A stretch of DNA of 32,531 nucleotides from Caulobacterales bacterium (lineage in GTDB: Bacteria; Pseudomonadota; Alphaproteobacteria; Caulobacterales; Caulobacteraceae). Shown here one piece after another: positions 3,137 to 26,557 of the stretch; the first letter of the stretch is position 1; each line of letters begins with the position of its first letter. A model generated the notes under the pieces. The model searched no databases and was not told where the DNA came from. It worked only from the letters and a program-made list of their open reading frames with translations. The position numbers were made by a program, and so were the translations under genes. The stretch covers positions 1-32,531 of the forward strand of contig JACRBD010000209.1 of the NCBI GenBank assembly GCA_016234625.1, written 5' to 3'.

Positions 3137-4576
3137 ATGTCAGGGTCGGACCACCGGACGGTGCGCCGGATAGTGCGAATGACGACAAATGCCCTATCCT
3201 CGCTTGTTGGGTCGTCCTGCCTGGGCTCCGTCAAACATCGGGCATGGTGGGCCGAGCCCGCCGCGGACTACGAGCGGAGAATGACCTTGGGGGCATTGAT
3301 CGGAGCCGAGTTGCTGAACAGGGGGTGCTTCTGCATCACCCTTGATCGCCAGGCCCTGGAAAAGTCGCTGGATCAGGAAGCCGGGGCCGCGGGTTTCGCG
3401 GCGAGCCTGGCTCGCTCTCATCCGCTGCTGTTTTCAAATGTGCCGGTGTTCGTGCCGGCCGAGACTATGGCCGAGATGGCGCGGGTGGTGACGGCGGTCG
3501 AGGCCGCCGCCCTGTTGCCTGGATACCGGGACGCGGCCCTGGCGTGGGCGCCGGCTATTGCTCAGGAAGAGTTCGGCCCCCTCGGCGCCCTCATGGGCTA
3601 CGACTTTCACGTCACGCCGGAGGGACCTCGGCTGATCGAGGTGAACACCAACGCCGGCGGCGCCTTTCTCAACGCCATATTGGCGCGGGCCCAGAGCGCC
3701 TGCTGCGCCGAGGTTCTCGCGCCGTTCGACATTCGTCCCTCGGAGGGCTTCGGAGACCGCATCGCCGACATGTTCGTCGCCGAGTGGCGGCGTCAGGGGC
3801 GACCCGGTCGGCCGGCGACGATCGCCATCATCGACGATCAGCCGGAGGACCAGCATCTCTATCCGGAATTCCGGCTGGCCAAGGCTCTGCTGGAGTCGCG
3901 GGGGTTCAGGGCCGTCATCGCCGACCCGGGCGATCTGACCTTGGCCGGGAGCCGCGTGACGATCGGCGGGGAGCCCATCGATCTTGTCTACAACCGGCTT
4001 GTCGACTTCGCTCTCGACCAGCCGCGGCACGCCGTGTTGCGGGCCGCGTACCAGGCGGGCGCGGTGGTGGTGACGCCAAGTCCCAGGATCCATGCCCTGC
4101 TGGCCGACAAGCGCAATCTGATGCTCCTGTCCGACGCGGACCGCCTCCGGCGCTGGGGGCTGCCGCAAGACGAGGTGGCGCTTCTCGACGCCGCCGTGCC
4201 GAAGACCACGATCGTCACGGCCGCCAACGCCGACGACCTCTGGCGGGACCGGCGGCGGCTGTTCTTCAAGCCGGCCGGCGGTCACGGCAGCAAGGCCGCT
4301 TACCGGGGCGACAAGATCACCCGCGGGGTCTGGGACGACATCCTCGCCGGCGCCTATGTGGCGCAGACCTATGCGGCCCCTGGACCGCGCGCGATTGAGC
4401 ACGAAGGCGCGCGAACCGATCTGAAGGTCGATGTGCGGCTCTACACCTATGCCGGGGTTGTCTTGCTGGCGGCGGCGCGCCTCTACCAGGGGCAGACCAC
4501 CAATATGCGAACGCCGGGCGGCGGCTTCGCGCCGGTTCTGGAAGTTCCCGCCGCCCTGACGGCCGCCTGTACCTGA
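3137..4576 (+). CDS. ATP-grasp-like protein of unknown substrate
   Basis: This 479-residue protein resembles ATP-grasp and glutathionylspermidine-synthase-like ligases in motif order, but I do not recognise a named family. Visible elements are RLIEVNTNAGGAFLNA (about 165-180); a Rossmann-like stretch TIAIIDDQPEDQHLYPE (about 228-244); DLVYNRLVDFAL (about 282-293) and DKRNLMLLSD (about 324-333); a glycine-rich nucleotide loop FFKPAGGHGSKAAYRG (about 376-391); and DLKVDVRLYTYAG (about 428-440) before NMRTPGGGFAPV. The EVN and NR.VDF motifs plus a late glycine-rich loop suggest a circularly permuted ATP-grasp fold that joins a carboxylate to an amine or thiol. The start is uncertain (ATG 3137 or in-frame ATG 3179; neither has a clear Shine-Dalgarno). 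It is cytoplasmic and precedes the phosphoketolase-like operon by about 600 bases. Confidence 0.6.
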   Translation: MSGSDHRTVRRIVRMTTNALSSLVGSSCLGSVKHRAWWAEPAADYERRMTLGALIGAELLNRGCFCITLDRQALEKSLDQEAGAAGFAASLARSHPLLFSNVPVFVPAETMAEMARVVTAVEAAALLPGYRDAALAWAPAIAQEEFGPLGALMGYDFHVTPEGPRLIEVNTNAGGAFLNAILARAQSACCAEVLAPFDIRPSEGFGDRIADMFVAEWRRQGRPGRPATIAIIDDQPEDQHLYPEFRLAKALLESRGFRAVIADPGDLTLAGSRVTIGGEPIDLVYNRLVDFALDQPRHAVLRAAYQAGAVVVTPSPRIHALLADKRNLMLLSDADRLRRWGLPQDEVALLDAAVPKTTIVTAANADDLWRDRRRLFFKPAGGHGSKAAYRGDKITRGVWDDILAGAYVAQTYAAPGPRAIEHEGARTDLKVDVRLYTYAGVVLLAAARLYQGQTTNMRTPGGGFAPVLEVPAALTAACT

Positions 4577-4996: not shown

Positions 4997-5010
4997 CTGA
5001 TCGCGCTCAA
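4997..5010. promoter_or_regulatory. Weak FNR/FixK-like site
   Basis: CTGATCGCGCTCAA matches the FNR/FixK consensus TTGAT-N4-ATCAA at 8 of 10 fixed positions. It lies in the divergent region between the small periplasmic gene and the phosphoketolase-like gene, 173 nt upstream of the latter's start. It also overlaps the ribosome binding site region of the minus-strand gene, which weakens the case. It would fit oxygen control of the fermentation genes, but the match is imperfect. Confidence 0.22.
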
Positions 5011-5182: not shown

Positions 5183-7567
5183 ATGACAGAGCTTTGGGTC
5201 GATCAGTGGAGGCCAGGCTACGGACCACTGCGGCGTGAAGCGGCGACAGTTGAGCGCGTCGAGGCCCTCGCGGCGCGCCTTGTGAAACGTGGCGCCTGGC
5301 CGGATGAGGAGACTGTCTACCGGGTCCTCGCCGCCGCCGATCGGCTGGCCAGCGCGGCGATGTGGGTTGTTGGGCACATGACCTACGCCCGAAAGGTGGA
5401 CCTGAGCGGGGTTCCGCTGGCGGCCGAGGCGTTCAAGACCGTCCCCGAGGGTCATATGGGCGGTTCGCTGAACATGGTCCCGGCCTTCGTCGGCTATCTC
5501 GCCGCCAATGTGCTGTCGGGAAAGACGCGCTCCTGGATCATGGGGCAGGGCCACTGCGTGGCGGCGATCGAGGCGGTCAACGCCCTGACCGGCGATGTTT
5601 CGCCGATGCAGAAGGGTCGCTACGACCGCACCGAGACCGGCCTCTCGCAACTGGTCTCCGACTTCTATTCCTACGCTATCGGCGCCGATGGGCGGCCCTC
5701 CGTTCCACTCGGCAGCCATGCCGGTCCGAATACGGCCGGGGCCGTTTCCGAGGGCGGCTACCTGGGTTTCGCCGAAGTCCAATACGTCCACATGCCCTTG
5801 GTCGGCGAGAGCCTGGTCGCGTTCCTCAGCGACGGCGCATTCGAGGAGCAGCGGGGGTCGGACTGGTCGCCGCGCTGGTGGCGCGCCGAGGACAGCGGCC
5901 TGACCGTTCCGATCATGATCCTCAACGGCCGGCGGATCGAGGAGCGGACCGCGATCGCCCAGGATGGCGGCGCGAGCTGGCTAGAGCAGCATCTGCGGCT
6001 CAGCGGGTTCGATCCTTTCACCATCGACGGCCACGACCCGGCCGCCTTCGCCTGGGCCATCCTCGAGGCGGAGGAAGGGCTCAAGCGGTTCACCAGCGAC
6101 CCTGCGCGAACCTATCCGGCGCCGATGCCCTATGTCATCGCCAAGGCGATCAAGGGCTTTGGATTTCCGGGCGCCGGAACCAACGCCGCCCACAATCTAC
6201 CGCTGGGCAAGAGCCCGCGCGTCGATGAGGACGCCCGGGCGGCCTTCAATGCCGCGGCGACGGCGCTGTTCGTTCCGGCGGATGAGCTCCAGGCGGCTAT
6301 CGGCGTACTTCAACCTCACGCCTTGCAACACCGTCCGTGTGAGAGCGACCATCCGAGCGCCAACCGCCGGCCGACGGACCCGGTTCGGCCGCTACCGCTG
6401 TGGTCGGCCGAGGCTCGCTCGCCCATGGACGCCCTGGACGCCTGGTTCGTGGCGTTCATCGACGCCAATCCCAATCTGCGTCCAAGGGTAGGCAATCCCG
6501 ACGAGCTGCGCAGCAACAGCATGGGGCGCACCTTGGACCGGCTCAGGCACCGGGTGAACGCGCCCGAGCCCGGCGTGCCGGAGGCGATCGACGGCGCGGT
6601 GATCACCGCGCTCAACGAGGAGGCCGTCGCCGGCGCGGCGCTGGGCAACAAGGGCGGGCTCAACCTGATCGTCAGCTACGAGGCCTTCGCCGTGAAGATG
6701 CTGGGCGGGCTGCGCCAGGAAATCGTCTTCGCCCGCCGGCAAAAGGAGGTCGGCGCGGCGCCGGGTTGGATCGCCATCCCGCTCGTCGCGACCTCCCACA
6801 CCTGGGAGAATTCCAAGAACGAGCAGTCGCACCAGGATCCGACCCTGGCGGAAGCCCTGCTCGGCGAGATGTCCGACACCGCCCGCGTGCTCTTCCCGAT
6901 CGATGCCGATAGCGCCGTGGCCGCCTTGCGAGGGCTTTACGGCGAGCGCGGGCAGATCGGCTGCCTGGTGACGCCCAAACGCGTCCTCCCTAACCGCCTC
7001 GATGGCGCTCAGGCCCAGGCTCTCTTCGACACCGGCGCCGTCCTCCTCTGTGGCGACCCGGCGACGGCGGAGGTGCAGTTCGTCGCCGTGGGCGCCTATC
7101 AGGTCGAGGAGGCCCTGAAGGCTCACGCCCGGGTTTCGGCGCGCGGCCGGCGCAGCTGCGTCACCGCCGTGCTGGAGCCCGGGCGGTTCCGAGAACCGCG
7201 AGACGAGATAGAGGCGGCCTTCGTCGTCGATGAGGCGGGTCTGAAGGCCCTTTTTCCCGCTGGCCTGCCGCGCGTGATCCTCAGCCATACCCGACCCGAA
7301 CCCATGATCGGCCTGTTGCGGCGGATTGATGAAGGACCGGGGCGCACCAGGGCCCTTGGCTACATCAGCCGGGGCGGGACGCTGGACGTTTCCGGGATGC
7401 TGTTCGCCAACCGCTGCACTTGGGCGCACGCGGTCGGCGCGGCGGCCGACCTGCTCGAAACCGACAAATCGACCATCCTTGAGGCCGTGGAGATCGCCGC
7501 GATCGAAGGCCGCCATCATCCCCGTGTCCTGGCGGGGGAAACCGAACCGAAGAGGAAGACAACGTGA
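5183..7567 (+). CDS. Divergent phosphoketolase-like ThDP enzyme
   Basis: The protein has 794 residues from the ATG at 5183, which follows AAGGG at a spacing of 8; upstream in-frame codons look noncoding. It aligns by eye to Xfp phosphoketolase (pentose or fructose phosphate plus Pi to acetyl phosphate) over its whole length. Correspondences: EGHMGGSLN (89-97) for LGHWGTTPGLN; MGQGHCVA (120-127) for GPGHGGP; SEGGYLGF (189-196); SDGAFEEQ (216-223) for the ThDP motif GDGEAETG; PIMILNG (243-249) for PILHLNG; NEEAVAGAALGNKGGLNLIVSYEAF (478-502); SHTWENSKNEQSHQDP (538-553) for SHT..DHNGFTHQDP. Several motif residues differ, so the substrate or reaction may differ; some databases give such proteins pentose-phosphate epimerase names. 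Its GTGA stop/start overlap couples it to the nuclease gene. Confidence 0.8.
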   Translation: MTELWVDQWRPGYGPLRREAATVERVEALAARLVKRGAWPDEETVYRVLAAADRLASAAMWVVGHMTYARKVDLSGVPLAAEAFKTVPEGHMGGSLNMVPAFVGYLAANVLSGKTRSWIMGQGHCVAAIEAVNALTGDVSPMQKGRYDRTETGLSQLVSDFYSYAIGADGRPSVPLGSHAGPNTAGAVSEGGYLGFAEVQYVHMPLVGESLVAFLSDGAFEEQRGSDWSPRWWRAEDSGLTVPIMILNGRRIEERTAIAQDGGASWLEQHLRLSGFDPFTIDGHDPAAFAWAILEAEEGLKRFTSDPARTYPAPMPYVIAKAIKGFGFPGAGTNAAHNLPLGKSPRVDEDARAAFNAAATALFVPADELQAAIGVLQPHALQHRPCESDHPSANRRPTDPVRPLPLWSAEARSPMDALDAWFVAFIDANPNLRPRVGNPDELRSNSMGRTLDRLRHRVNAPEPGVPEAIDGAVITALNEEAVAGAALGNKGGLNLIVSYEAFAVKMLGGLRQEIVFARRQKEVGAAPGWIAIPLVATSHTWENSKNEQSHQDPTLAEALLGEMSDTARVLFPIDADSAVAALRGLYGERGQIGCLVTPKRVLPNRLDGAQAQALFDTGAVLLCGDPATAEVQFVAVGAYQVEEALKAHARVSARGRRSCVTAVLEPGRFREPRDEIEAAFVVDEAGLKALFPAGLPRVILSHTRPEPMIGLLRRIDEGPGRTRALGYISRGGTLDVSGMLFANRCTWAHAVGAAADLLETDKSTILEAVEIAAIEGRHHPRVLAGETEPKRKTT

Positions 7568-8922
7568 TCACCTTAACGAGTCTGGGCGGCGCGGGAACGG
7601 TCACCGGTTCCAAGCACATGCTGGAGTTCGACGGTCGGCGGCTGCTGGTCGATTGCGGGCTGTTTCAGGGCCTGAAGGCGCTTCGTGAGCGCAACTGGGA
7701 ACCGTTCCCGATCGATCCGGCGAGTGTCGATGGCGTCGTCCTGACTCATGCGCACCTGGACCACTGCGGCTATCTGCCCAAGCTGGTCAAGGAGGGTTTC
7801 GGCGGCGAGATTTACGCCACGCCGGCGACCAACGACCTTTCCGAGATCATCCTCCTGGACAGCGCCCACATCCAGGAGAAGGACGCCGAGTTCGCCAATC
7901 GCAGGGGCTTCTCCAAGCACAAGCCCGCCTTGCCGCTTTATGGCGTGCGGGACGCGGAGCAAGCCTTAAAGCAGTTCTCGACGGTGGATATCGGCGCCCC
8001 GATAACTCTGCCCGGTGGAGCCGAGCTGACGCTCCGCCGGGCCGGACATATCCTGGGCGCCGCGACCGCGGAGCTGCGCTGGGCCGGCAAGACGATCGTC
8101 TTCTCCGGGGATCTCGGACGCTATGGCGACGCGGTCATGGTGGATCCTGAACCGGTCGCCGAGGCCGACTATTTGATCATCGAGTCGACCTATGGAAACC
8201 GTAAACACGAAGCGGGCGATCCGACGGCGGCTCTGGGCGACATCATCGAGCGCACGACCCGGCGCGGCGGTACCGTGATTATTCCCACGTTCGCGGTCGG
8301 CCGGGCCCAGTCGCTGATGTATCATCTGTGGAAGCTCAAACAGGCGGGCCGCCTCGGGCTGACGCCCATCTACCTCGACAGCCCAATGGCGATAAACGCC
8401 ACCGACCTGCTTCACAAGCATCGTGGGGAACACCGCCTCACACCCGAGGAGTGCGACGCCACCTGCGGGATCGCCACCTATATCCGGGACGTGGAGGAGT
8501 CGAAGGCGGTCACCGGCAGCCCGGTGCCGAAGGTGATCCTGGCCGCCAGCGGCATGGCCACCGGCGGGCGGGTGCTGCACCATATCAAGGCCTTCGGACC
8601 GGATCGCCGCAACACCATCCTGTTCTCCGGCTTCCAGGCTGCCGGCACACGGGGCCGCTCGATGATGGAGGGGGCCGGAGAGGTCAAGATTCACGGCCAA
8701 TGGATCCCCATCCATGCCGAGGTGGCCTACCTCTCGATGCTCTCGGCCCATGCCGACGCGGACGAGATCCTTCGCTGGCTCTCGGGCTTCCAGCGCCCGC
8801 CGAAGAAGACCTTTATCGTCCATGGGGAGCCGGACGCATCCGACGCGCTTCGTCTCCGCATCGAGGATCGCTTCGGCTGGGACTGCGTCATCCCGCAGAT
8901 GATGGAGACGCACGAGCTGTGA
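7564..8922 (+). CDS. Beta-CASP metallo-beta-lactamase-fold ribonuclease
   Basis: A 452-residue protein that starts with GTG inside a 4-nt overlap with the upstream stop. The metallo-beta-lactamase motifs are complete: THAHLDHCG (61-69) for motif 2, GHILGAA (161-167) for motif 3 and SGDLGRYGD (181-189) for motif 4. The beta-CASP insertion follows, with ESTYGNR (207-213), FAVGRAQ and ASGMATGGR, then the C-terminal SAHADADE and VHGEPDASD. This is the TTHA0252/YSH1-like group of zinc-dependent RNA endo- and exonucleases; bacterial members process or degrade RNA in the cytoplasm. The length is normal for the group. It overlaps the next gene as well (GTGA at 8919-8922), so it is translated as part of the metabolic operon. 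Confidence 0.9.
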   Translation: MITLTSLGGAGTVTGSKHMLEFDGRRLLVDCGLFQGLKALRERNWEPFPIDPASVDGVVLTHAHLDHCGYLPKLVKEGFGGEIYATPATNDLSEIILLDSAHIQEKDAEFANRRGFSKHKPALPLYGVRDAEQALKQFSTVDIGAPITLPGGAELTLRRAGHILGAATAELRWAGKTIVFSGDLGRYGDAVMVDPEPVAEADYLIIESTYGNRKHEAGDPTAALGDIIERTTRRGGTVIIPTFAVGRAQSLMYHLWKLKQAGRLGLTPIYLDSPMAINATDLLHKHRGEHRLTPEECDATCGIATYIRDVEESKAVTGSPVPKVILAASGMATGGRVLHHIKAFGPDRRNTILFSGFQAAGTRGRSMMEGAGEVKIHGQWIPIHAEVAYLSMLSAHADADEILRWLSGFQRPPKKTFIVHGEPDASDALRLRIEDRFGWDCVIPQMMETHEL

Positions 8923-10448
8923 GCAGCGCGACGCCCAATTCCACACAGCACCCCGCGGCCCTGAGGGCGCGCCGGCTGCGGCTGTTCACCCAGCACGAGT
9001 CGATCGTCGTCATGCGCACCGATTGTCATGTCTGTCGCTCCGAGGGCCTTTCGGCGCGCGCGCGGGTGTTGCTGGTCGCTGGTGACAGGGAGGTCCACGC
9101 CACTCTGTTCCAGGTCGAGGGCGATGCCCTCGTCGCCCCAGGCGAGGCGGCCCTCTCGGAAGAGGCCTGGAGGCTCCTGGGCGTCGGCGAGGGCGACCCG
9201 ATCCATGTGCGGCACGCGCCCGCCCTGGCGTCGATGGCCAGCGTCCGGCGGCGCATCTACGGCAATCGTCTCGATGAACCCGCCCTGCAGTCTATCGTCA
9301 CGGACGTGGTGGCCGGTCGCTACACCAACGTGCACCTGGCCGCCTTCCTCACGGCGACATCCGCCCTGCCGCTCGACGAGGCCGAAACCGTGGCGCTGAC
9401 CCAGGCCATGGTCGATGCCGGCGACCGCCTTTCCTGGCGAGCGACCACGGTCATCGACAAGCACTGCATCGGCGGTTTGCCGGGCAACCGCACGACGCCG
9501 ATCGTGGTGGCGATCGTCGCGGCCTGCGGACTGGTCGCCCCCAAGACTTCGTCCCGGGCTATCACCTCGCCGGCGGGGACGGCCGACACCATGGAGACGT
9601 TGGCGCCTGTCGACCTCGATCTTGCCGCCATGCGCCGGGTGGTGGAGGCCGAAGGCGGCTGCGTCGTTTGGGGCGGCGCCGTCCGATTGAGCCCGGCCGA
9701 TGACATCTTCATCCGCGTCGAACGCGTGCTCGACGTCGATACCGAAGGCCAGCTGATCGCCTCGGTGCTGTCGAAGAAGATCGCCGCCGGCTCGACGCAC
9801 GTCGTGCTGGATATCCCGGTCGGCCCCACCGCCAAGGTGAGGAGCGCGGACGCCGGCGAGCGGCTGGCCGAGCGGCTGTCCTCCACGGCGGCCCATTTCG
9901 GTCTTGTCGCCCGTTGCATCCAAACGGACGGAAGCCAGCCTGTCGGCCGGGGCATCGGCCCGGCTCTGGAGGCCATCGATGTCTTGGCCGTGCTCCAAGG
10001 TAATCCCGGAGCCCCGCAGGATCTTCGCCGTCGCGCCTGCCTGCTGGCGGGGGCGGCGCTCGAACTCGGCGGCGCGGCGGCCGAGGGCGAAGGCGAGGCC
10101 TTGGCGGAGGCCGTGCTGGCCGATGGTCGCGCCTGGGCCAAATTCCAAAAGATCTGCGAGGCGCAAGGCGGCATGCGCGCGCCGCCGCGCGCGCCGCTCC
10201 AAGCGCCGGTGAGCGCGCCCCGTTCAGGCCGGGTGATCCACATGCACAACCGAAAGATCGCCACCCTGGCGAAACTCGCCGGTGCCCCCGACGTCAAGGC
10301 GGCGGGGCTGAGCCTGAATGTCAGGCTGGGGGACGAAGTGGCGGCGGGTGATCCATTCCTCTTCGTGCACGCGGAAACGGCTGGCGAGCTCGGCTACGCC
10401 ATGGACTACGCGAGGGCCAACCCGGACCTGATCGAGATCGAGGCTTAG
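8919..10448 (+). CDS. AMP/thymidine phosphorylase family protein (long, archaeal-AMPpase type)
   Basis: Translation most likely begins at GTG 8919, in the GTGA overlap with the nuclease, giving 509 residues. This is the length of archaeal AMP phosphorylase rather than of DeoA thymidine phosphorylase (about 440). An extra N-terminal domain of about 95 residues precedes the helical domain. The phosphate-binding region is DKHCIGGLPGNRTTPIVVAI (180-199), where GGLPGN corresponds to GGVPGN of AMP phosphorylases and differs from the STGGVGD of DeoA. PKTSSRAITSPAGTADTME (208-226) follows. The reaction is phosphorolysis of a nucleoside or nucleoside monophosphate to free base plus ribose 1-phosphate or ribose 1,5-bisphosphate. 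A 4-nt gap leads to the PRPP synthetase gene. Confidence 0.85.
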   Translation: MSSATPNSTQHPAALRARRLRLFTQHESIVVMRTDCHVCRSEGLSARARVLLVAGDREVHATLFQVEGDALVAPGEAALSEEAWRLLGVGEGDPIHVRHAPALASMASVRRRIYGNRLDEPALQSIVTDVVAGRYTNVHLAAFLTATSALPLDEAETVALTQAMVDAGDRLSWRATTVIDKHCIGGLPGNRTTPIVVAIVAACGLVAPKTSSRAITSPAGTADTMETLAPVDLDLAAMRRVVEAEGGCVVWGGAVRLSPADDIFIRVERVLDVDTEGQLIASVLSKKIAAGSTHVVLDIPVGPTAKVRSADAGERLAERLSSTAAHFGLVARCIQTDGSQPVGRGIGPALEAIDVLAVLQGNPGAPQDLRRRACLLAGAALELGGAAAEGEGEALAEAVLADGRAWAKFQKICEAQGGMRAPPRAPLQAPVSAPRSGRVIHMHNRKIATLAKLAGAPDVKAAGLSLNVRLGDEVAAGDPFLFVHAETAGELGYAMDYARANPDLIEIEA

Positions 10449-10452
10449 ACCG

Positions 10453-11322
10453 ATGCGACTGATCCTCCCCCTGCCGGGCGCCGAGGCCTTGGCGTCCGAG
10501 ATTGCCGCCGGCCTGAGTGCCGAACTGGGCGCCGTCGAGACCCGGCGGTTCCCCGACGGCGAGTCTTATGTGCGTCTGCCGATGGAGGTCGCGGGCCGCG
10601 AAGTGATAATCGTCTGCACCCTGGCGCGGCCGGACGAGCAGTTCCTGCGCCTAGCGTTCGCCGCCCGCGCGGCACGGGAGCTCGGCGCGACCCGGCTGAC
10701 GCTGGTCGCGCCCTATCTGGCCTACATGCGCCAGGACAAGCGGTTCCAGCCGGGAGAGGCGCTCACATCGCGCCATTTCGCCGATCTGATCTCCCGGGAG
10801 TTCGACGCGCTGATCACCGTCGATCCCCACCTTCACCGTCACAAGGCGTTGAGCGAAATCTACCCGATCCCGGCGACGGCGCTGCGCGCTGCGCCGCTTC
10901 TGGCGGACTGGATCAGGCTCAACGTCGAGCGGCCGCTGATCATCGGTCCTGACATCGAGAGTGAGCAGTGGGTGTCGCAGGTGGCCGAGCGCGCGGCGGC
11001 GCCCCACCTGGTGCTGAGCAAGCAGCGGCATGGCGACCGCGACGTGGAGATCGCCATCCCGGACCTGGACGCCTGGCGTGATCGACAGCCGGTTCTCATC
11101 GACGATATCGTTTCGTCGGGACGCACGATGATCGAGACGGCGGAGGGCCTGGTCGCCGAGGGCCTCGCGAAGCCGGTGTGCGTGGCTGTCCATGCCCTGT
11201 TTGCCGACGACGCCTACCAGCGCCTGTCGGACCTTGCGCGATCGGTGGTGTCGACCAATACCGTCTCTCATCCCAGCAACGGGATTTCGGTCGCGGCGCT
11301 GCTGGTCGAAGCCCTGCGGTAG
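10453..11322 (+). CDS. Ribose-phosphate pyrophosphokinase (PRPP synthetase), short archaeal-like form
   Basis: A 289-residue protein, shorter than the bacterial housekeeping enzyme (about 315) and close to archaeal class III enzymes. Motifs: RRFPDGESYVRLP near the N-terminus; the ATP-binding loop APYLAYMRQDKRFQPGE (about 90-106), whose YMRQDKRF is archaeal in style; VDPHLHRH (about 123-130); and the PRPP loop VLIDDIVSSGRTM (about 214-226). It would make PRPP from ribose 5-phosphate and ATP, or run in reverse or on a related pentose bisphosphate to feed the upstream enzymes; this is inference. It lies 4 nt after the phosphorylase gene, the last gene of the tightly spaced run. The housekeeping prs gene is presumably elsewhere. 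Confidence 0.85.
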   Translation: MRLILPLPGAEALASEIAAGLSAELGAVETRRFPDGESYVRLPMEVAGREVIIVCTLARPDEQFLRLAFAARAARELGATRLTLVAPYLAYMRQDKRFQPGEALTSRHFADLISREFDALITVDPHLHRHKALSEIYPIPATALRAAPLLADWIRLNVERPLIIGPDIESEQWVSQVAERAAAPHLVLSKQRHGDRDVEIAIPDLDAWRDRQPVLIDDIVSSGRTMIETAEGLVAEGLAKPVCVAVHALFADDAYQRLSDLARSVVSTNTVSHPSNGISVAALLVEALR

Positions 11323-13675: not shown

Positions 13676-14944
13676 TTGAAGCCGATTTTTGCCCGACTGC
13701 GCGGTAGCGCCCTGCTCCAGAAATTGGGGCCCGGCCTGATCACCGGCGCGGCCGACGACGACCCCAGCGGCATCGCGACCTATTCACAGGCTGGCGCGCA
13801 GTTCGGCATCGATATGCTCTGGACCATGCCCCTGACCTATCCGCTGATGGTCGCGATCCAATCGATCTGCGCGCGCATCGGCCGGGTGACCGGCCTCGGG
13901 CTCGCCGCCAACATGGAGCGGATCTTTCCAGCCTGGCTGGTCACGCTTCTCGTCGGGCTGCTCTTTGTCGCCAATACCATCAACATCGCGGCCGACCTCG
14001 CGGCCATGGGCTCGGCGGCGGCTCTTGTGTTGGGCGGTGGGCCACACATCTTCACCATCGCCTTCGCGTTGGTCTCGCTGACCCTCCAGATACTGATGCC
14101 CTATCATCGCTATGTCCGTTATCTAAAATGGCTGACCCTGGCGTTGTTCGTCTATGTCGGCGTCGTATTCACCGTGAAGATCGATTGGGGAGACGTCGCG
14201 ATCCACACCGTGGCGCCGCGCCTTCCGCTGAACAGCGCGGCCATCACCCTGGTGGTAGCTGTCTTCGGCACGACGATCAGTCCCTATCTGTTCTTCTGGC
14301 AGAGTTCCGGGGAGGTGGAGGACCAGGAGGGCAAACAATCAGGGTCGCTGCTTGAGAATCCGGAGCAAGCTCCCGCCGAACTTGGCCGTATCCGGCTCGA
14401 CACACTCGTCGGCATGGCCTTCTCCAATCTGATCGCCTTCTTCATCATTCTGACCACGGCTGTGACCCTGCACGCCAACGGTCTCACCAATATCCAGACC
14501 TCAGCCGACGCGGCGCTGGCGCTGAAGCCGATCGCCGGCCCCTTCGCCTTCGTGCTGTTCAGCCTTGGGGTCATCGGGACCGGCCTCCTGGCCGTCCCGG
14601 TGCTGGCCGGCTCAGCGGCCTATGCGTTCGGCGAGGCTCGCGGCTGGAAGACCGGTCTCGAGCGGAAGCCCAGAGAGGCGGTGGGATTCTATTCGGCGAT
14701 CGGTCTGGCTACCCTGATTGGCTTGGCCATTCACTTTGCCCCCATTGATCCGATCAAGGCGCTGTTCTGGTCGGCCATCCTGAATGGTGTCGTCGCGGTG
14801 CCGATCATGGCGGCGACCATGATCGTCGCATCCCGTCGCCAGGAAATGGGGCCGTTCATCGCCTCGGCGGGGCAGCGAATCTTTGGCTGGGCCGCGACGG
14901 TCATCATGGCGATAGCGGTCATCGCGATGTTTGTCGTTCGGTGA
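13676..14944 (+). CDS. Nramp-family divalent metal transporter, noncanonical metal site
   Basis: A 422-residue polytopic protein starting with TTG at 13676, 9 nt after GGAG. The N-terminus LGPGLITGAADDDPSGIATYSQAG (17-40) is the first helix of the Nramp fold. The canonical metal-binding DPGN reads DPSG here (29-32), and the helix-6 MPH motif is replaced by ISPYLFFWQSSGE (201-213). Canonical Nramp proteins move manganese or iron with protons. Proteins with these replacements belong to an outlying branch that may prefer another ion such as magnesium, or have changed coupling. About eleven hydrophobic segments are visible. It stands alone between the TPM genes and the convergent sigma factor. 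Confidence 0.85.
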   Translation: MKPIFARLRGSALLQKLGPGLITGAADDDPSGIATYSQAGAQFGIDMLWTMPLTYPLMVAIQSICARIGRVTGLGLAANMERIFPAWLVTLLVGLLFVANTINIAADLAAMGSAAALVLGGGPHIFTIAFALVSLTLQILMPYHRYVRYLKWLTLALFVYVGVVFTVKIDWGDVAIHTVAPRLPLNSAAITLVVAVFGTTISPYLFFWQSSGEVEDQEGKQSGSLLENPEQAPAELGRIRLDTLVGMAFSNLIAFFIILTTAVTLHANGLTNIQTSADAALALKPIAGPFAFVLFSLGVIGTGLLAVPVLAGSAAYAFGEARGWKTGLERKPREAVGFYSAIGLATLIGLAIHFAPIDPIKALFWSAILNGVVAVPIMAATMIVASRRQEMGPFIASAGQRIFGWAATVIMAIAVIAMFVVR

Positions 14945-15072
14945 TGGCGACTGAATCCCGCGGGTCCGTCACGCACCGACGCCCGGTGTCCGGATTTTGG
15001 TCTCGCTGCTGTGCGCGTCGCGCTCGCCGATGCGATTGCTCGGGCTCCTCGCCAAAATCGACAAGGGGACCG

Positions 15073-15714
15073 TCAGCTGACCTGCCTGGCCAGGAAGCGC
15101 TCGGCGGCGGAGCAGCGGGCCGGGCAGGCGGCGCAACGCGCGCGCATCGACTGTCGCAGCGCCTCCCGGGCGCGGTGCAGGCGCACGGCGACGTTGTTGG
15201 CCGTGAGGTCCAGTTCTTCAGCCACGACCTTGAGGGGCGTCTGCTGCAGTTCAGCGCGGCGGATCAGGGTCGCATAGGCGGGCTTCAGTTCGCCGATGGC
15301 GCGGGACAGGCAGGCCATCGACGCCTCCATGTCCTCGTCGGTGTCGCCATGCTCCGCTGGCGGCGGCTCGCTCGCCACGCCTTGTTGCAACCTGCGGCGA
15401 GCGCCCTCCCGACGATAGCGGTCGAACAGGGTGTTGCGGAGGCTCACATTGAGCCAGGCGTCGATTTTCTGGGGATCGCTCAAACGCGCGGCGCCCTGGA
15501 TCGCCCTGATGGAAAAGTCCTGTAGCACGTCTTCCGCATCCTCCCGGCTCGGGAGTCTACTGGCGAGAAAGCGCAGCCGACGTTCGCGCTCGCCGGACAA
15601 CCTGGCTTCGATCAACCGCCCCATCTCTCCAGCGGAGAGCGAGGGGCGGACCACGGCCAGCGCCGCGGGAAACGAAGCGGGAAGCTCCCGGCGCTCAACT
15701 GACTGAACCCTCAT
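15073..15714 (-). CDS. ECF-type RNA polymerase sigma factor with cysteine-containing tail
   Basis: A 213-residue protein. Region 2 (about 42-105) shows SREDAEDVLQDFSIRAIQGA and AWLNVSLRNTLFDRYRREGARRR; region 4 (about 140-190) shows LKPAYATLIRRAEL and LKVVAEELDLTANNVAVRLHRAREAL, a clear helix-turn-helix. After region 4 comes CAACPARC, with cysteines at 194, 197 and 201. Cysteine-rich tails occur in metal-responsive ECF factors such as CorE, but this tail is shorter. No anti-sigma gene is adjacent, so control may lie in the tail, in the Fur-like box upstream (15790-15804) or in the hairpin over the start (15722-15742). The ATG at 15714 has GGAG 7 nt upstream. Confidence 0.88.
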   Translation of the reverse strand: MRVQSVERRELPASFPAALAVVRPSLSAGEMGRLIEARLSGERERRLRFLASRLPSREDAEDVLQDFSIRAIQGAARLSDPQKIDAWLNVSLRNTLFDRYRREGARRRLQQGVASEPPPAEHGDTDEDMEASMACLSRAIGELKPAYATLIRRAELQQTPLKVVAEELDLTANNVAVRLHRAREALRQSMRARCAACPARCSAAERFLARQVS

Positions 15715-15721
15715 GACCGTG

Positions 15722-15742
15722 CTCCATCACCAAGTGATGGAG
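15722..15742 (-). promoter_or_regulatory. Perfect inverted repeat covering the sigma-factor ribosome binding site
   Basis: CTCCATCAC-CAA-GTGATGGAG is a perfect 9-bp inverted repeat with a 3-nt loop, ending 7 nt before the sigma-factor ATG. In the transcript (minus strand) the Shine-Dalgarno GGAG lies in the 3' arm and would be paired. It could be a translation-blocking hairpin or a DNA operator for a dimeric regulator; the sequence alone does not decide between these. Confidence 0.55.
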
Positions 15743-15789
15743 GCAAGTTTTCATGGTCGGAAAGGAACGGGTTTGCTACAAATCAAATG

Positions 15790-15804
15790 TGAGAATGATT
15801 GTCA
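15790..15804 (-). promoter_or_regulatory. Fur-box-like operator over a TTGACA -35 element
   Basis: TGAGAATGATTGTCA matches the Fur core TGATAATNATTATCA at all but two of its fixed positions and is itself nearly palindromic. On the minus strand a perfect TTGACA (15805-15800) overlaps it, reading toward the sigma gene at 15714. The expected -10 region (about TTTGTA) is poor. The arrangement suggests iron-dependent repression of the sigma factor. Confidence 0.5.
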
Positions 15805-15995
15805 AAAAAGCTGAATAGCTTTGAGGGATTGATCGATTGGACGCGTATAGCGCCAGGAAGTGGTGCGGAACTGTTGATTGGGCTTGGGCCTGCTTGTTCC
15901 GATCAGCTCTACACTTTTTTGAGGGATTTTGGATTCTTGTGCGTATTGCACCCAGCACATGATTGAGAAGGGTCAAACCGTTCGTGGATCGACCG

Positions 15996-16014
15996 CCTGC
16001 GCCGATTGCGCAGG
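15996..16014 (-). terminator. Hairpin just beyond the DUF6629 gene
   Basis: CCTGCGC-CGATT-GCGCAGG is a 7-bp perfect inverted repeat just downstream of the minus-strand stop at 16018. It lacks a T run. Together with the 180 bases of gene-free sequence to the left it may end the transcript. Confidence 0.35.
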
Positions 16015-16017
16015 GAA

Positions 16018-16701
16018 TCAATGCGTCGCGGGCACCTCGACGGCTGGCCGAGCCGGTTTCCGCCACATCATCCAGGCGAGATAAAGAGATGCAATCGCCC
16101 CTCCGAAGCAGAACACGGAGATGTACGCCCACTGGAAGAACGCCAGGGTGACGACCAACACCAGCGCGATCAGACCGCCGAAGATCCTCAGACGGTGGTC
16201 CGAGGACAGCAGCATGGGAACGACCACCAAGCCGGAGTAGACCGCATAGGTCAGGGGCCTTCCGACGATCACATCCAGCAGCTGCTCATCGGTATAACGA
16301 ACCGCGTAGTCCAGAAAGCTCACCCTCAGCCACCCGGTATGGGCCAGATAGGGCAGCCACTGGATCGAGCCGAGCATCGCACCGACGATGATGAAGACGA
16401 GGTAGGCGGGCCGGCGCCGCTGCGGCTCGACGTAGTAGGCTGACAGCGGAATCCACACCGGCCAGGCGATCCAGGCGAAGAAGGTGTAGGCCAGCGACAG
16501 AATTTCCACGGCCTGCATATTCGAGCGGCTTCCCTCGATCCAGATGAACCCCTCGATCAGCTGTTGCACGCCGAGGAGGACCGGCAGGGTAGCCACCGCC
16601 AGATATCGTCGGTCGGTTCGCCATGCGCGTCTCACGGTCGCCGCGCCCAGTGGAATAAGGACTGCCGCCGCGGTTAGGCTGACCGGCGCTGAAAGGCACA
16701 T
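16018..16701 (-). CDS. DUF6629-like multi-pass membrane protein
   Basis: 227 residues from the ATG at 16701, which follows GGGGGA. The open frame continues upstream, but the N-terminus MCLSAPVSLTAAAVLIPLG matches the family opening MCFSA.aSf...vLlpiG, so this start is preferred. GVQQLIEGFIWIEG is the other recognisable conserved segment. About seven hydrophobic helices are predicted, including SLAYTFFAWIAWPVWIPLSA and the final FFQWAYISVFCFGGAIASLYLAW. Family members have no known function. It is divergently transcribed from the DUF305 gene across a 249-bp region and its own promoter is not obvious. Confidence 0.75.
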   Translation of the reverse strand: MCLSAPVSLTAAAVLIPLGAATVRRAWRTDRRYLAVATLPVLLGVQQLIEGFIWIEGSRSNMQAVEILSLAYTFFAWIAWPVWIPLSAYYVEPQRRRPAYLVFIIVGAMLGSIQWLPYLAHTGWLRVSFLDYAVRYTDEQLLDVIVGRPLTYAVYSGLVVVPMLLSSDHRLRIFGGLIALVLVVTLAFFQWAYISVFCFGGAIASLYLAWMMWRKPARPAVEVPATH

Positions 16702-16950: not shown

Positions 16951-17469
16951 ATGGCTCCCGAACAGCACGGTGACCACCAGAAGTCTGGTAGACCTTATGT
17001 CCGACTGCTCGGCATGGCGGTCGTCCACTTCCTGGCCATGTTTGTCTTGATGTACGCTATGGTGGCCTCCACAGCCGATGTCTTTCCCAACGGCAACCAA
17101 GCCTACATGGCGGCGCTAATGACCTCACCGATGCTCCTGATCGAGCCGTGGTTGATGGGAGCCATGTATCCCAGCAAGGTCCTGAACGTCGCGATGGCGC
17201 TGGCTGGCCTGGCCATACTGGCCGGATCGTTCCTGTTTATCCGGCAGCAGGTGTTCATCTCGGATCGGCAGTTCCTGAAATCGATGATCCCGCATCACTC
17301 GGCCGCGATTCTGATGTGCGAACAGGCCCAGATCAGGGACTCTCAGATCAAGGCGCTCTGCGGCGGAATCGGCGAGAGCCAGTCCGCGGAGATCGCGTGG
17401 ATGAAGGCCAAGCTCCGGGCCATGGATCAGGGACGCGCAACCCAGGTTCCCGCGCCGCCGGCGCGGTGA
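16951..17469 (+). CDS. Membrane-anchored DUF305 protein
   Basis: A 172-residue protein with three hydrophobic segments (about 20-40, 55-72 and 78-97) followed by a DUF305-type helical domain: DRQFLKSMIPHHSAAILMCEQAQIRDSQIKALC (105-137) and then GESQSAEIAWMKAKL. The MIPHH motif with its nearby Met and Cys is the family hallmark and a likely copper-binding site; related periplasmic DUF305 proteins bind copper. The protein sits in the inner membrane. Its position beside a copper operon fits metal handling. A perfect EcfG-type promoter upstream suggests induction by general stress. It converges on copB with a 67-bp gap. Confidence 0.85.
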   Translation: MAPEQHGDHQKSGRPYVRLLGMAVVHFLAMFVLMYAMVASTADVFPNGNQAYMAALMTSPMLLIEPWLMGAMYPSKVLNVAMALAGLAILAGSFLFIRQQVFISDRQFLKSMIPHHSAAILMCEQAQIRDSQIKALCGGIGESQSAEIAWMKAKLRAMDQGRATQVPAPPAR

Positions 17470-17536
17470 ACAGTCCTCCGAGGACGACCCGGAAAGCATT
17501 GACGTGACCGGTGACCGGGGCTTCGCGGGCGGTTGC

Positions 17537-18235
17537 TCAGAGGAGTAGCCGTAATCCAAGACGGATCGTCGTCTCCTCGCTATCCTCGCCCGCTGCCTCC
17601 CAAAGCCGGGCTGTCTCCCCCCGCTGGCTTGACCAGCCGATCCCGACGTAGGGCGCGACCTTGCGGGAGAATTCGTAGCGGAGGCGAACACCGGCCTCGA
17701 CGTCTGTGACGCCGGACCCTTCCAACAGTTGTTGATCGGCCTCGCCGGCGGCCCGCACCACCCCATAAGGCTCGGCGAACAGTCTCTGCGTCAGGGTTAG
17801 CTCGTAGCTGACCTCAAGGCGCGCGGAGACCCGGCCCCGATCGTCGAGAAAGGCGGCCGCATCGACCTCGAACCAATAGGGGGCGAGCCCCTGGACGCCG
17901 ACCACGGCGGCGGTCCGGCTGGTCGGTTCGACCGTCTGACGCAAGCCCGCCTGGACGTCCCAGAAGTCGCCAAAGGCCCGCGAAAACAGAACCTGAACAT
18001 CGGCCCGATCAGTCGGCCCCGCGGTCATGTCGCCGGCGCTCTTCAGCCACAGGCGGCGTTCGTCGCCGCCAACCCAGCCCTGCGCATCCCAGTCATAGCT
18101 CGCGCCGAAATCGGTCGAGAGGCCAATGTCGCCTCGTGCCAGAATGAAGGAATTGGGCGCGGGCCCGTCCATGGCCAGCACCGGCCAGGCCGAGAGGGCG
18201 GCGGTCGCGGTGGCGATCATCAGCAGCGGTCGCAT
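17537..18235 (-). CDS. copB: Copper resistance outer membrane protein CopB
   Basis: A 232-residue protein with a signal peptide ending in PVLAMD (cleavage near residue 21). The CopB/PcoB pattern is clear: alternating beta strands with LARGDIGLSTDFGASYDWDAQGWVGGDERRLWLKSAG near the start, VQVLFSRAFGDFWDVQAGLRQ, GVQGLAPYWFEVDAAAFL, ARLEVSYELTLTQRLFAEPYG, VEAGVRLRYEFSRKVAPYVGIGW and a final beta strand ending LRLLL, as in outer-membrane barrels. It lacks the Met/His-rich N-terminal linker of longer plasmid-borne CopB proteins. It is the last gene of the minus-strand copper operon, 40 nt after copA, and probably acts with CopA in sequestering or exporting copper. Confidence 0.92.
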   Translation of the reverse strand: MRPLLMIATATAALSAWPVLAMDGPAPNSFILARGDIGLSTDFGASYDWDAQGWVGGDERRLWLKSAGDMTAGPTDRADVQVLFSRAFGDFWDVQAGLRQTVEPTSRTAAVVGVQGLAPYWFEVDAAAFLDDRGRVSARLEVSYELTLTQRLFAEPYGVVRAAGEADQQLLEGSGVTDVEAGVRLRYEFSRKVAPYVGIGWSSQRGETARLWEAAGEDSEETTIRLGLRLLL

Positions 18236-18275
18236 GCGGTATCTCCGATAGCAGCAATTATGGGAGGCGAATGGG

Positions 18276-19901
18276 TCACGGCGCGCCGACTTCGCCGACC
18301 ACCATCGTCGTCATCATCCCGGTCGCGGCGTGAAACAGGATGTGGCAGTGGAACGCCCAGGTCTTCGTGGCCGTCACGGTGACATCGACGGTCACCGTCT
18401 GTCCCGGCTTGACCAGCACGGTGTGTTTGCGTGGACCCAGCGAACCGTCGGGATTGACCAGGTCCATCCACATCCCGTGCAGGTGCATCGGGTGGTCCAT
18501 CATGGTTTCGTTCACGATCCTCACCCGCACCCGTTCACCGTAGCGGACCTGAATCGGCGTGGCCTTGGGCCATTTGCGGCCGTCGATCGACCAGTAGTAG
18601 CGCTGCATCGAGCCGGTCAGGCGCAGCGTCACCTCCCGCTCCGGGGGCGTCCTGTCGACATAGGATCGAGCCGGGGAAAGGTCGGCGTAGCCGAGAACCC
18701 TCAGACCCTCCGGCGCAACGGCGGGCTCTTCGGCCATCTCGACCTCGCTCATGTCCATTTCGGGCATGGCCGCCGCGCCCGGATCGTGACCGTCGTGACG
18801 CGCGACGGGCGCGCCAGGCTCGTGCCGGTCATGGCCGGCATCGGCGCTGCCCATGTCGGCCATGGTCCGAAGCGGCCGGGGGTCCATCGGCGGAACCGGC
18901 GCGCTCATGCCTTCCCGGGGCGCCAGCGTCCCGCGCGCATAGCCGGTGCGATCGAAGGCCTGGGCGAAAAGGGTATAGGCGCGGTCAGAATCCGGCTCGA
19001 CGATCACGTCGTAGGTTTCGCCCATCACGATACGGAACTGGTCTACCGGAACGGGCGTCACGTCCTGGCCATCGGCCTGAACCACCGTCATCTTTAACCC
19101 CGGAATCCGGACATCGAAGAACGTCATCGCGGCGGCATTGACGAACCGCAGGCGAATGCGCTCGCCAGGCTTGAACAAGGCGGTCCAGTTCGTGGCCGGG
19201 TCCTTTCCGTTGACGAGAAAAGCGTAGCCCGAAACGTCGGTGAGGTCGGTCGGATCCATCCGCATCCGGCCCCAGGCCAGACGATCCCTGATGATGCTGG
19301 CGCGGGCTTCGCCGTCCGGCGCGCGCCGAAGCTCGGTGAAGAAGTCCCCGACCGTGCGACGGTTGTAGTTGTAGTAGTTGCTCTGCTTCTTGAGGTGGGC
19401 GAGCGCCTCGTAGGGGCTCTCCTTCAGCCAGTCCGACAGGATGACCACATATTCCCGGTCGGCATCGATGCCGTCGGGCGCGGCCGGATCGATGATGATC
19501 GGCGCGAACACGCCGAGCTGCTCCTGAAGGCCGGAATGGCTATGGTACCAGTAGGTTCCGGACTGCTGAACCACGAACTGATAAGTGCGTGTCTCGCCCG
19601 GCTTGATGGCCTCGAAACCCAGCCCCGGAACGCCATCCATCGCCTGCGGCAGGATGATCCCGTGCCAGTGGATCGAGGCGTCCTCCTTGAGCCGGTTTGT
19701 CACATTGATCGTGACGTCCTCGCCCTCCCGCCACCGCAGCACCGGGCCGGGAATCTGGCCGTTGATCGACAGCGCCGACGAGGTCTTTCCGGCCGCCGTT
19801 ACGGTCGTGGGTTCAAGCACCAAATTATAGGTGTCGGCCCAGGCCGGGACGACGAGAAACAGCGAGATCGCGCTGAGCGCGAGGGCGAGGAGGTGGCGCA
19901 T
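18276..19901 (-). CDS. copA: CopA-type multicopper oxidase
   Basis: A 541-residue periplasmic oxidase with a signal peptide (about 1-22; it has no twin arginine, unlike many CopA proteins). All four copper-ligand motifs are intact: HWHG (78-81), HSHSG (120-124), HPMHLHG (470-476) and HCHILFHAATGM (518-529), giving the type 1 and the type 2/3 sites. Between the second and third cupredoxin domains is a Met/His-rich insertion (about 340-395), with MADMGSADAGHDRHEP, HDGHDPG and MPEMDMSEVEM, which probably binds copper. It oxidises Cu(I) in the periplasm during copper detoxification. It lies 66 nt downstream of the MFS gene and directly before copB. Confidence 0.95.
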   Translation of the reverse strand: MRHLLALALSAISLFLVVPAWADTYNLVLEPTTVTAAGKTSSALSINGQIPGPVLRWREGEDVTINVTNRLKEDASIHWHGIILPQAMDGVPGLGFEAIKPGETRTYQFVVQQSGTYWYHSHSGLQEQLGVFAPIIIDPAAPDGIDADREYVVILSDWLKESPYEALAHLKKQSNYYNYNRRTVGDFFTELRRAPDGEARASIIRDRLAWGRMRMDPTDLTDVSGYAFLVNGKDPATNWTALFKPGERIRLRFVNAAAMTFFDVRIPGLKMTVVQADGQDVTPVPVDQFRIVMGETYDVIVEPDSDRAYTLFAQAFDRTGYARGTLAPREGMSAPVPPMDPRPLRTMADMGSADAGHDRHEPGAPVARHDGHDPGAAAMPEMDMSEVEMAEEPAVAPEGLRVLGYADLSPARSYVDRTPPEREVTLRLTGSMQRYYWSIDGRKWPKATPIQVRYGERVRVRIVNETMMDHPMHLHGMWMDLVNPDGSLGPRKHTVLVKPGQTVTVDVTVTATKTWAFHCHILFHAATGMMTTMVVGEVGAP

Positions 19902-19967
19902 GGGGGCTTCCGTGAATAGGCTTCGCGGCTAAAGACGTCCCATCCGTCGGGAGATTACGCCCCGCTC

Positions 19968-23837: not shown

Positions 23838-23884
23838 GCGAAAAGACTCCGGCGAGAGGGTTCGGCAGGACCGGACCGGCGGGA

Positions 23885-26552: not shown

Positions 26553-26557
26553 CTGTC

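Follow-up and report, generated by a model that had tools for sequence, protein, structure and literature searches.

A mobile gene set joining a divergent phosphoketolase to nucleotide-cleaving enzymes, a candidate low-oxygen fermentation of nucleotide ribose

The archaeal AMP, or pentose bisphosphate, pathway of Thermococcus kodakarensis comprises AMP phosphorylase, ribose-1,5-bisphosphate (R15P) isomerase and type III RuBisCO. In the soil bacterium Bradyrhizobium diazoefficiens, two FixK2-dependent operons have been described, bll2518-bll2517 (phosphoketolase and acetate kinase, AckA) and bll3117-bll3116-bll3115 (phosphorylase, PRPP synthetase and a metallo-beta-lactamase protein); Table 2 of that study lists changes in the delta-fixK2 strain of -10.0 for bll2518, -10.2 for bll2517, -6.6 for bll3117 and -30.6 for bll3115, with bll3116 assigned to the operon and given no row of its own (PMC9104804). 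A second study reports bll2518 and bll3115-bll3117 as raised in microoxia and flags them as not being FixK2 targets (PMC6515984 Table 2); they fall outside its significance-tested top 66 and do not rise in bacteroids. The lxa locus of Burkholderia cenocepacia encodes acetate kinase, a phosphate acetyl/butyryl transferase, the MBL protein BCAM0300, PHB genes, ABC transporters and a cation ATPase (PMC4981469 Table 2; PMC6127331). In the collection of papers searched, we found no work that pairs AMP phosphorylase with phosphoketolase and, among the matches listed, no title on the gene set described below; the available portions of PMC9104464 and PMC11252147 held nothing on it.

The window, the whole 32,531-nucleotide stretch of Caulobacterales DNA analysed here, carries a string of four plus-strand genes at positions 5183-11322. 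The string opens with a divergent TPP-dependent phosphoketolase-family protein of 794 aa (XFP-like; 5183-7567), which starts at ATG 5183 and has its stop codon at 7565-7567. A beta-CASP metallo-beta-lactamase with an RMMBL RNA-specificity domain, 452 aa in length and ribonuclease-like (MBL; 7564-8922, stop 8920-8922), begins at GTG 7564 within a GTGA overlap with the preceding stop, and the same arrangement recurs at GTG 8919, the start of a 509-aa AMP-phosphorylase-like or 'thymidine phosphorylase family' protein (AMPpase; 8919-10448, stop 10446-10448). Four bases further on, at ATG 10453, lies the start of a 289-aa PRPP synthetase of the NF005537 subfamily (PRS; 10453-11322). An earlier note had described this string and its GTGA overlaps among the first three genes, and we could verify its open reading frames, junctions and family assignments throughout.

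The XFP-like protein matches Pfam XFP (5.2e-36, 124.5 bits against a gathering threshold of 22) and XFP_N (2.4e-12, 46.8 bits against 23.7), and its profile matches the solved phosphoketolase 3ahc with an E-value of 4.7e-35. Residues H91, H179, H337 and H550 align with H64, H142, H320 and H553 of the B. breve phosphoketolase, which are the residues mutated according to PDB titles on an assumed chain numbering of +20, and all four are invariant in two alignments (8/8 sequences in A1 and 19/19 in A3). With the predicted structure as a Foldseek query (model pLDDT 76.5), phosphoketolases occupy ranks 1-20 at TM scores of 0.67-0.74, and transketolases begin at rank 21. Compared with heterofermentative or bifid-type phosphoketolases, to which identity is 18-28%, the protein represents a divergent subfamily; its best score against the NCBIfam PRK05261 subfamily models, 105.6 of 777 bits, is under cut-off. 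By family, catalytic histidines and predicted fold it is a phosphoketolase-family protein, with xylulose 5-phosphate as its putative substrate. Many XFP-like proteins bear the database name 'xylulose 5-phosphate 3-epimerase', which we rejected: family searches match XFP only, and the structural matches listed are phosphoketolases or transketolases.

The phosphorylase contains Pfam Glycos_transf_3, Glycos_trans_3N and PYNP_C, and scores above cut-off for NF003338 and TIGR02645. T. kodakarensis AMP phosphorylase 4ga5 matches it with an E-value of 1.8e-95 and is also its top Foldseek match. At the positions that we take, after UniProt, to be the AMP-contact and acid residues of that enzyme, G168, S194-S199, D256, S264 and K288 are kept in all 73 bacterial phosphorylases compared and T203 in 72 of the 73, while V163K and K173R set all 73 apart from the archaeal protein. 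The description 'AMP-phosphorylase-type' holds as to family, likeness to 4ga5 and AMP-contact residues, but the AMP phosphorylase equivalog TIGR03327 falls short of its cut-off (470.4 of 535 bits). The PRPP synthetase carries Pribosyltran_N and exceeds the cut-offs of both TIGR01251 (198.7 bits against 113) and NF005537 (430.9 against 322); a second, higher-scoring TIGR01251 copy at G000:C212 is presumably the housekeeping enzyme and the window copy an extra one. MBL contains MBL, Beta-Casp (3e-33) and RMMBL (3e-19) domains, from which a role as ribonuclease is predicted. Among NCBIfam models it scores under cut-off for aCPSF1 (258 bits) and for Cas14 (369 bits), and we discarded a CRISPR type VII nuclease on the latter score.

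Across genomes, the gene set is a conserved, shuffled and mobile module. Our neighbourhood census, given as raw counts without matched control regions, covers the best 80 of at least 556 confirmed XFP-like loci and is tilted to close relatives because of that choice. Near these best 80 lie MBL in 68, AMPpase in 51 and PRS in 49; AckA occurs within 10 kb in 40 and within 300 bp in 13, and a type II GAPDH relative in 11. Among the 54 of the 80 with full flanks, 15 have all five genes and 16 all except AckA. From the other side, in a sample of 398 genomes, 40 of 49 AMPpase matches are followed by PRS within 500 bp and only 5 of the 49 have XFP-like within 10 kb; of the 20 AMPpases with an identity of 52% or more, 13 have MBL within 500 bp, as do 6 of 14 XFP-like matches. 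The 13 sampled genomes with XFP-like include MBL in 8 and AMPpase in only 4, and in three f45 genomes XFP-like adjoins MBL without AMPpase. In Fisher tests on the 398 genomes, which ignore kinship, phosphorylase and synthetase are associated at 3e-48 and XFP-like and MBL at 1e-6, but XFP-like and phosphorylase only at 0.048. Of the stretches sampled, 3 of the 7 that contain XFP-like also have AckA, as against 0 of the 13 that contain phosphorylase and no XFP-like. Individual arrangements vary: a canonical phosphoketolase replaces XFP-like in one genome (G162), with AckA, MBL, AMPpase and PRS inside 20 kb; on an Alteromonas plasmid AckA and XFP-like overlap by a single base; on a Phenylobacterium plasmid XFP-like is some 58 kb away from MBL-AMPpase-PRS; and type II GAPDH, above cut-off in 1 of 249 genomes (G273), sits about 10 kb from an MBL-AMPpase-PRS string. 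XFP-like also occurs on plasmids typed conjugative. The set co-occurs far outside the window genome, the outcome of the neighbourhood check that the earlier note had proposed.

Two further genes had been named as following the string. Both exist: a D-isomer 2-hydroxyacid dehydrogenase (30462-31469, plus strand; Pfam 2-Hacid_dh/_C), a candidate NADH-reoxidising partner, and an acetate/propionate kinase (31466-32530, minus strand; Pfam Acetate_kinase, 2.4e-89) whose 5' end lies outside the window. They are convergent, however, and about 20 kb from the four genes, with AckA on the opposite strand. The call of D-lactate dehydrogenase held as to the 2-hydroxyacid family but not as to the specific enzyme, since all 24 NCBIfam models listed for it, D-lactate dehydrogenases included, fall short of cut-off. 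Its relatives lie near only 3 of the best 80 of at least 556 XFP-like loci, which makes lactate dehydrogenase a weak candidate for a partner of the module; a 'hydroxyacid dehydrogenase' annotation is present in loci L003 and L009. A CPD-motif heavy-metal P-type ATPase (21453-24071, minus strand; TIGR01511 above cut-off) represents a recurrent companion, with relatives near 30 of the same best 80, and the window also encodes a CopA-type multicopper oxidase, CopB and a DUF305 protein.

The inference of the earlier note, that RNA is broken down as an energy reserve under oxygen limitation, is partly supported, by co-occurrence, by AckA often lying near XFP-like and by the FixK2-dependent counterparts in B. 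diazoefficiens, matched by product name and gene order alone. The window operon itself is preceded by no good FNR box. Its sole candidate, the weak FNR/FixK-like palindrome CTGATCGCGCTCAA (4997-5010, unstranded; one mismatch to TTGA-N6-TCAA), lies roughly 190 bp upstream of the XFP-like start and is unconvincing alone. The window genome holds a second operon, AMPpase-PRS-MBL-USP, with a perfect FixK-type box at position -131. Near the operons of relatives FNR-type boxes are enriched. Upstream of operons, FNR cores were counted at 26 sites, spread over 23 of 81 loci, whereas 11 permuted palindromes gave 1-10 sites. Exact FNR boxes occur 15 times in 1.605 Mb, where 20 other genomes lead one to expect 3.2; one precedes XFP-like and four, in two near-identical pairs, precede type II GAPDH, and most do not precede the module.

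Our preferred reading, to which we give a probability of roughly 0.55, is that the module is a mobile, low-oxygen-controlled fermentation of nucleotide ribose via phosphoketolase to acetate and ATP. The beta-CASP enzyme may help to turn RNA into nucleotides, which AMPpase, judged by its family, would split with phosphate into base and ribose phosphate. The linked PRPP synthetase might act on this ribose phosphate or on the pool of PRPP, and housekeeping isomerase and epimerase would carry pentose phosphate to xylulose 5-phosphate, from which XFP-like would produce acetyl phosphate and glyceraldehyde 3-phosphate. AckA, a frequent neighbour, would make ATP from acetyl phosphate, and GAPDH, found as an archaeal-type copy in some islands, would take the other half. 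With respiration halted, the cell would gain ATP and dispose of electrons, and it is plausible that RNA serves as an energy reserve.

How nucleotide-derived ribose phosphate might reach the phosphoketolase without R15P isomerase is the question that this scheme raises. The isomerase, noted earlier as missing from the window, is also missing beyond it: TIGR00511 is above cut-off in none of 25 genomes, with weaker matches in 8 (at most 180 of 314 bits) and none in the window genome, which is 91.75% complete. DeoB, for a ribose 1-phosphate route, is found in 5 of the 25, the window genome included, and therefore cannot be a general link. PhnN, above cut-off in 6 of the 25 with the window genome not among them, was set aside, as was a HAD hydrolase adjoining type II GAPDH, with matches in 2 of the loci compared. 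A speculative and quite improbable idea is that the phosphorylase and PRS together supply both the missing link and a source of ATP, such that RNA would be fermented to acetate by oxygen-starved bacteria without R15P isomerase in at least three substrate-level ATP steps. The phosphorylase, whose fold is common to PRPP-using TrpD, might free PRPP from nucleoside monophosphates with pyrophosphate, or might yield R15P for conversion by the synthetase-like partner, which would run PRPP + AMP to ribose 5-phosphate + ATP.

The same lack of an isomerase above cut-off in the 25 genomes would fit nucleotide-pool management without energy gain, in which the RNase, the phosphorylase and the PRPP synthetase serve to salvage bases and ribose or to maintain PRPP and AMP levels in growth arrest, and phosphoketolase with AckA forms a separate overflow under the same regulator. 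AMPpase-PRS is the tightest pair (40/49, against 5/49 for XFP-like within 10 kb), and the bll25xx and bll31xx operons of B. diazoefficiens are separate (PMC9104804). We nevertheless regard this explanation as unlikely: a single gene string unites both halves in the window and in many other loci, and they are together again in G162 around a canonical phosphoketolase.

The copper genes of the window and its heavy-metal ATPase suggest the other main alternative, a bypass of metal stress in which the module would supply spare or metal-tolerant enzymes and would travel with copper export genes; its type II GAPDH, phosphoketolase and PRPP synthetase would replace GAPDH, pentose-phosphate and Prs steps that are sensitive to copper. 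Copper inhibits Prs of S. aureus (PMC10249872), in 12 loci the distance between the PRS start and a P-ATPase with a CPH motif is -22 to 39 bp, and the operon sits amid copper genes on Agrobacterium, Paracoccus and Sphingobium plasmids. At least one metal-list gene occurs in 34 of the best 80 of at least 556 loci, but energy-list genes occur in 50 of these 80, with both lists in 23 and neither in 19. CueR-type boxes with at most one mismatch are absent from the window, and the 81 loci hold two exact and four one-mismatch boxes. Acetate kinase, MBL and phosphorylase would be unaccounted for, and the B. diazoefficiens counterparts depend on FixK2 (PMC9104804); we find a copper bypass rather unlikely. 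Least likely of all, in our view, is a gathering of useful stress genes on mobile islands without metabolic linkage. XFP-like is missing from all 24 genomes of the same genus searched, the plasmids are typed conjugative and the phosphorylase tree intermingles classes, all as such passengers would predict; yet start and stop codons overlap, the same families are recombined in several orders and the named B. diazoefficiens counterparts share one regulator (PMC9104804).

If fermentation of nucleotide ribose is the correct reading, many oxygen-respiring proteobacteria have a transferable means of surviving anoxia by burning their own nucleotides, gene groups already known as low-oxygen-induced acquire a joint role, and the epimerase name on many XFP-like proteins is wrong. 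Likeness to the lxa locus is by product name alone (acetate kinase, MBL, ABC, ATPase), and Table 2 of PMC4981469, with its many 'hypothetical' entries, names no phosphoketolase, thymidine phosphorylase family protein or PRPP synthetase. With the FixK2 regulon of B. diazoefficiens the module shares five identical product names, compared by name and there divided between two operons; unlike in the window these operons lie apart, and the available portions of the published accounts draw no pathway between them. Like the archaeal AMP pathway, the module has a related phosphorylase and would use nucleotides as its ribose source; it differs in that R15P isomerase is above cut-off in none of the 25 genomes and that the phosphorylase is adjoined by PRPP synthetase and phosphoketolase. 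With the heterofermentative or bifid-type pathway it has in common the phosphoketolase family, the catalytic histidines and an AckA often nearby, whereas its nucleotide enzymes and its place on proteobacterial mobile islands set it apart.

Open reading frame checks and family searches bore out, in position, GTGA overlaps and families, the four-gene string that the earlier note had read at 5183–11322; all four genes lie on the plus strand. The phosphoketolase-like protein (XFP-like, 5183–7567), a beta-CASP/RMMBL metallo-hydrolase (MBL, 7564–8922) and an 'ARCH_P_rylase/thymidine phosphorylase'-type phosphorylase (8919–10448) are coupled through GTGA overlaps, and the PRPP synthetase (10453–11322) starts 4 bases later. 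A D-lactate dehydrogenase and an acetate kinase had also been described; by family search the acetate kinase stands (31466–32530, truncated by the window end), but on the minus strand, and the plus-strand dehydrogenase (30462–31469) belongs to the 2-hydroxyacid dehydrogenase family.

A profile built from eight XFP-like relatives matched the B. breve phosphoketolase at 4.7e-35, and a Foldseek search with the structure model (pLDDT 76.5) returned phosphoketolases at ranks 1–20, with transketolases only below. The B. breve histidines named as mutated in PDB titles, H64, H142, H320 and H553, pair with H91, H179, H337 and H550, given a chain numbering of +20, and these are invariant in 8/8 and 19/19 relatives. 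Asn543 stands in the profile alignment at B. breve Gln546, a position that we take to be functional, so the pocket may differ from that of the B. breve enzyme. On a Phenylobacterium plasmid (L005), a transaldolase/6-phosphogluconate dehydrogenase fusion (14375–16564) directly follows the XFP-like gene, hinting at a substrate from the pentose-phosphate pathway. Annotations of 15 plasmid orthologs (identity 46% or higher) give phosphoketolase once and 'xylulose 5-phosphate 3-epimerase' 14 times, the latter a label for which we found no supporting evidence. XFP-like is the only PF09364 match in the draft genome (91.75% complete; the window is its contig C132), and the gene was found in none of 24 same-genus genomes searched.

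The nearest solved relative of the phosphorylase, by sequence and fold searches, is the T. kodakarensis AMP phosphorylase; the model has a pLDDT of 69.5, falling below 50 in parts of residues 101–274. The protein passes the TIGR02645 and NF003338 cut-offs and falls short of that of TIGR03327. It may act on a nucleotide or on a nucleoside. Residues that we presume to be AMP contacts are kept in all 73 bacterial phosphorylases compared (T203 in 72), and V163 is replaced by K and K173 by R in all 73. A phosphorylase of 73% identity is carried by MT836048.1, a short unannotated faecal 'Bacteriophage sp.' record that is probably bacterial DNA.

Co-occurrence across genomes, proposed earlier as a check, was examined in 398 genomes of the phylum, searched at set E-value limits and including related, non-independent genomes. 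Phosphorylase occurs in 45, synthetase in 41, MBL in 34 and XFP-like in 13; with kinship ignored, phosphorylase and synthetase are found together in 40 (Fisher 3e-48), and XFP-like co-occurs with MBL in 8/13 (1e-6) and with phosphorylase in 4/13 (0.048). At 40/49 phosphorylase matches the synthetase follows downstream in the same orientation, no more than 500 bp away. MBL lies within 500 bp of 13/20 phosphorylases of at least 52% identity and, at a strict MBL limit of 1e-100, of 0/29 remaining ones; an MBL of 37–39% identity directly follows the synthetase in three of the six lower-identity loci fetched (G000:C178 in the window's own genome, and the sampled genomes G075 and G166). XFP-like matches lie within 500 bp of MBL in 6/14 cases and within 10 kb of phosphorylase in 5/14.

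Near the best 80 of at least 556 confirmed XFP-like loci, which are the closest relatives and were counted without matched control regions, we found MBL (68), phosphorylase (51), synthetase (49), acetate kinase (40), P-type ATPase (30), multicopper oxidase (13), type II GAPDH (11) and hydroxyacid dehydrogenase (3). The 54 of these loci with full flanks include 15 with all five core genes (the four-gene string and acetate kinase), 16 with all but acetate kinase and two with XFP-like alone. Gene order differs between loci, and about 58 kb separates XFP-like from MBL-phosphorylase-synthetase on the Phenylobacterium plasmid that carries the transaldolase fusion; nine plasmid records cover 80% or more of the DNA of the four genes. 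The archaeal-type (type II) GAPDH also recurs beside the module at four compared loci (L003, L006, L008, L009), and only 1/249 sampled genomes passed its cut-off. Acetate kinase occurred in 3/7 fetched stretches of the sampled genomes with XFP-like versus 0/13 with phosphorylase only. In one genome (G162) a canonical phosphoketolase shares a 20-kb stretch with acetate kinase, MBL, phosphorylase and synthetase, so it seems to be phosphoketolase activity that is conserved, not one specific protein. The census also holds a family cluster of 16 loci to which a 479-residue protein of the window (3137–4576) belongs; it had no notable match in Pfam, NCBIfam or PDB, and its glycine-rich motifs allow a guess at an ATP-grasp enzyme.

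Judging from the protein families, nucleotides would feed the route through the phosphorylase, and gene neighbourhood supports the step from acetyl phosphate to ATP through acetate kinase. The connecting isomerase, noted earlier as not visible, is likewise without a match in the window's genome: ribose 1,5-bisphosphate isomerase exceeded the cut-off in 0/25 genomes, with weaker matches in eight. PhnN and DeoB occurred in 6/25 and 5/25. Since phosphorylase and synthetase are tightly paired and the window's genome has a separate, higher-scoring PRPP synthetase, we infer that the pair itself is the best candidate for linking the phosphorylase product to phosphoketolase.

Regulatory data point to low oxygen. 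For B. diazoefficiens lacking fixK2, at 0.5% oxygen, Table 2 of PMC9104804 gives −10.2 for bll2517 (acetate kinase), −10.0 for bll2518 (phosphoketolase), −30.6 for bll3115 (MBL) and −6.6 for bll3117 (thymidine phosphorylase family); bll3116 is listed as an operon member without a Table 2 row of its own, and a FixK2 box precedes both operons, bll2518-bll2517 and bll3117-bll3115 (PMC9104804). We base orthology on product names and on G075, which has the same phosphorylase-synthetase-MBL order. In the lists of PMC6515984, bll2518, bll3115, bll3116 and bll3117 are up in microoxia in protein and transcript (log2 FC 4.3, 2.9, 4.4 and 2.1; FC 8.2, 15.4, 7.7 and 5.1, in order), within a second list (log2 FC at least 1) outside the significance-tested top 66; there they carry '-' under FixK2 targets and show no increase in bacteroids. 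For the R. palustris phosphoketolase Rpal_1869, one of the six data columns in PMC3050613 shows a clear drop when FixK is absent.

Exact TTGAT-N4-ATCAA boxes number 15 in 81 loci (1.605 Mb) versus 3.2 expected from a count of 159 across 80.07 Mb of 20 other genomes (P 1.4e-6), or 11 with near-copies collapsed (P 4.8e-4). Only one of the 15 precedes XFP-like; four (two near-identical pairs) lie 40–65 bases before type II GAPDH. A scan of the regions before operons for TTGA-N6-TCAA, allowing one mismatch, gave 26 sites in 23/81 loci, against 1 to 10 for 11 permuted palindromes; among 19 further operons scanned, 9 carried a site of this or of the FixK type. A weak box, at 4997, is all that precedes the window's own operon. 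A second phosphorylase-synthetase-MBL-USP operon in the same genome (L109, G000:C178, 7662–12957; phosphorylase 46% identical) has two perfect FixK-type boxes, TTGACCTGCCTCAA at −131 and TTGACCATGATCAA ahead of USP.

The energy module read in the earlier note thus gains support as regards low oxygen and the pairing of phosphoketolase with acetate kinase; RNA may plausibly serve as its energy reserve. Two less likely alternatives, about equal in probability, are that the genes manage nucleotide pools without energy gain and that they serve in copper stress, the latter with real support. The window's copper cluster (16951–24071) encodes a DUF305 protein, CopB, a CopA-type multicopper oxidase, an MFS protein and, on the minus strand at 21453–24071, a heavy-metal P-type ATPase with CPD where CPC is usual, a motif present in 8/32 P-type ATPases examined, those of the window and of seven loci. 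Because 23 of the best 80 of at least 556 XFP-like loci hold genes from both metal and energy lists, copper-stress and low-oxygen roles could both be true.

Between the copper cluster and the dehydrogenase, 25563–30455 encodes an RbbA-like set of HlyD, a fused ABC ATPase and two ABC-2 permeases, with relatives near 10 to 19 of the same best 80 loci. Similar products are listed in a table for the low-oxygen-activated lxa locus of Burkholderia cenocepacia (PMC4981469).
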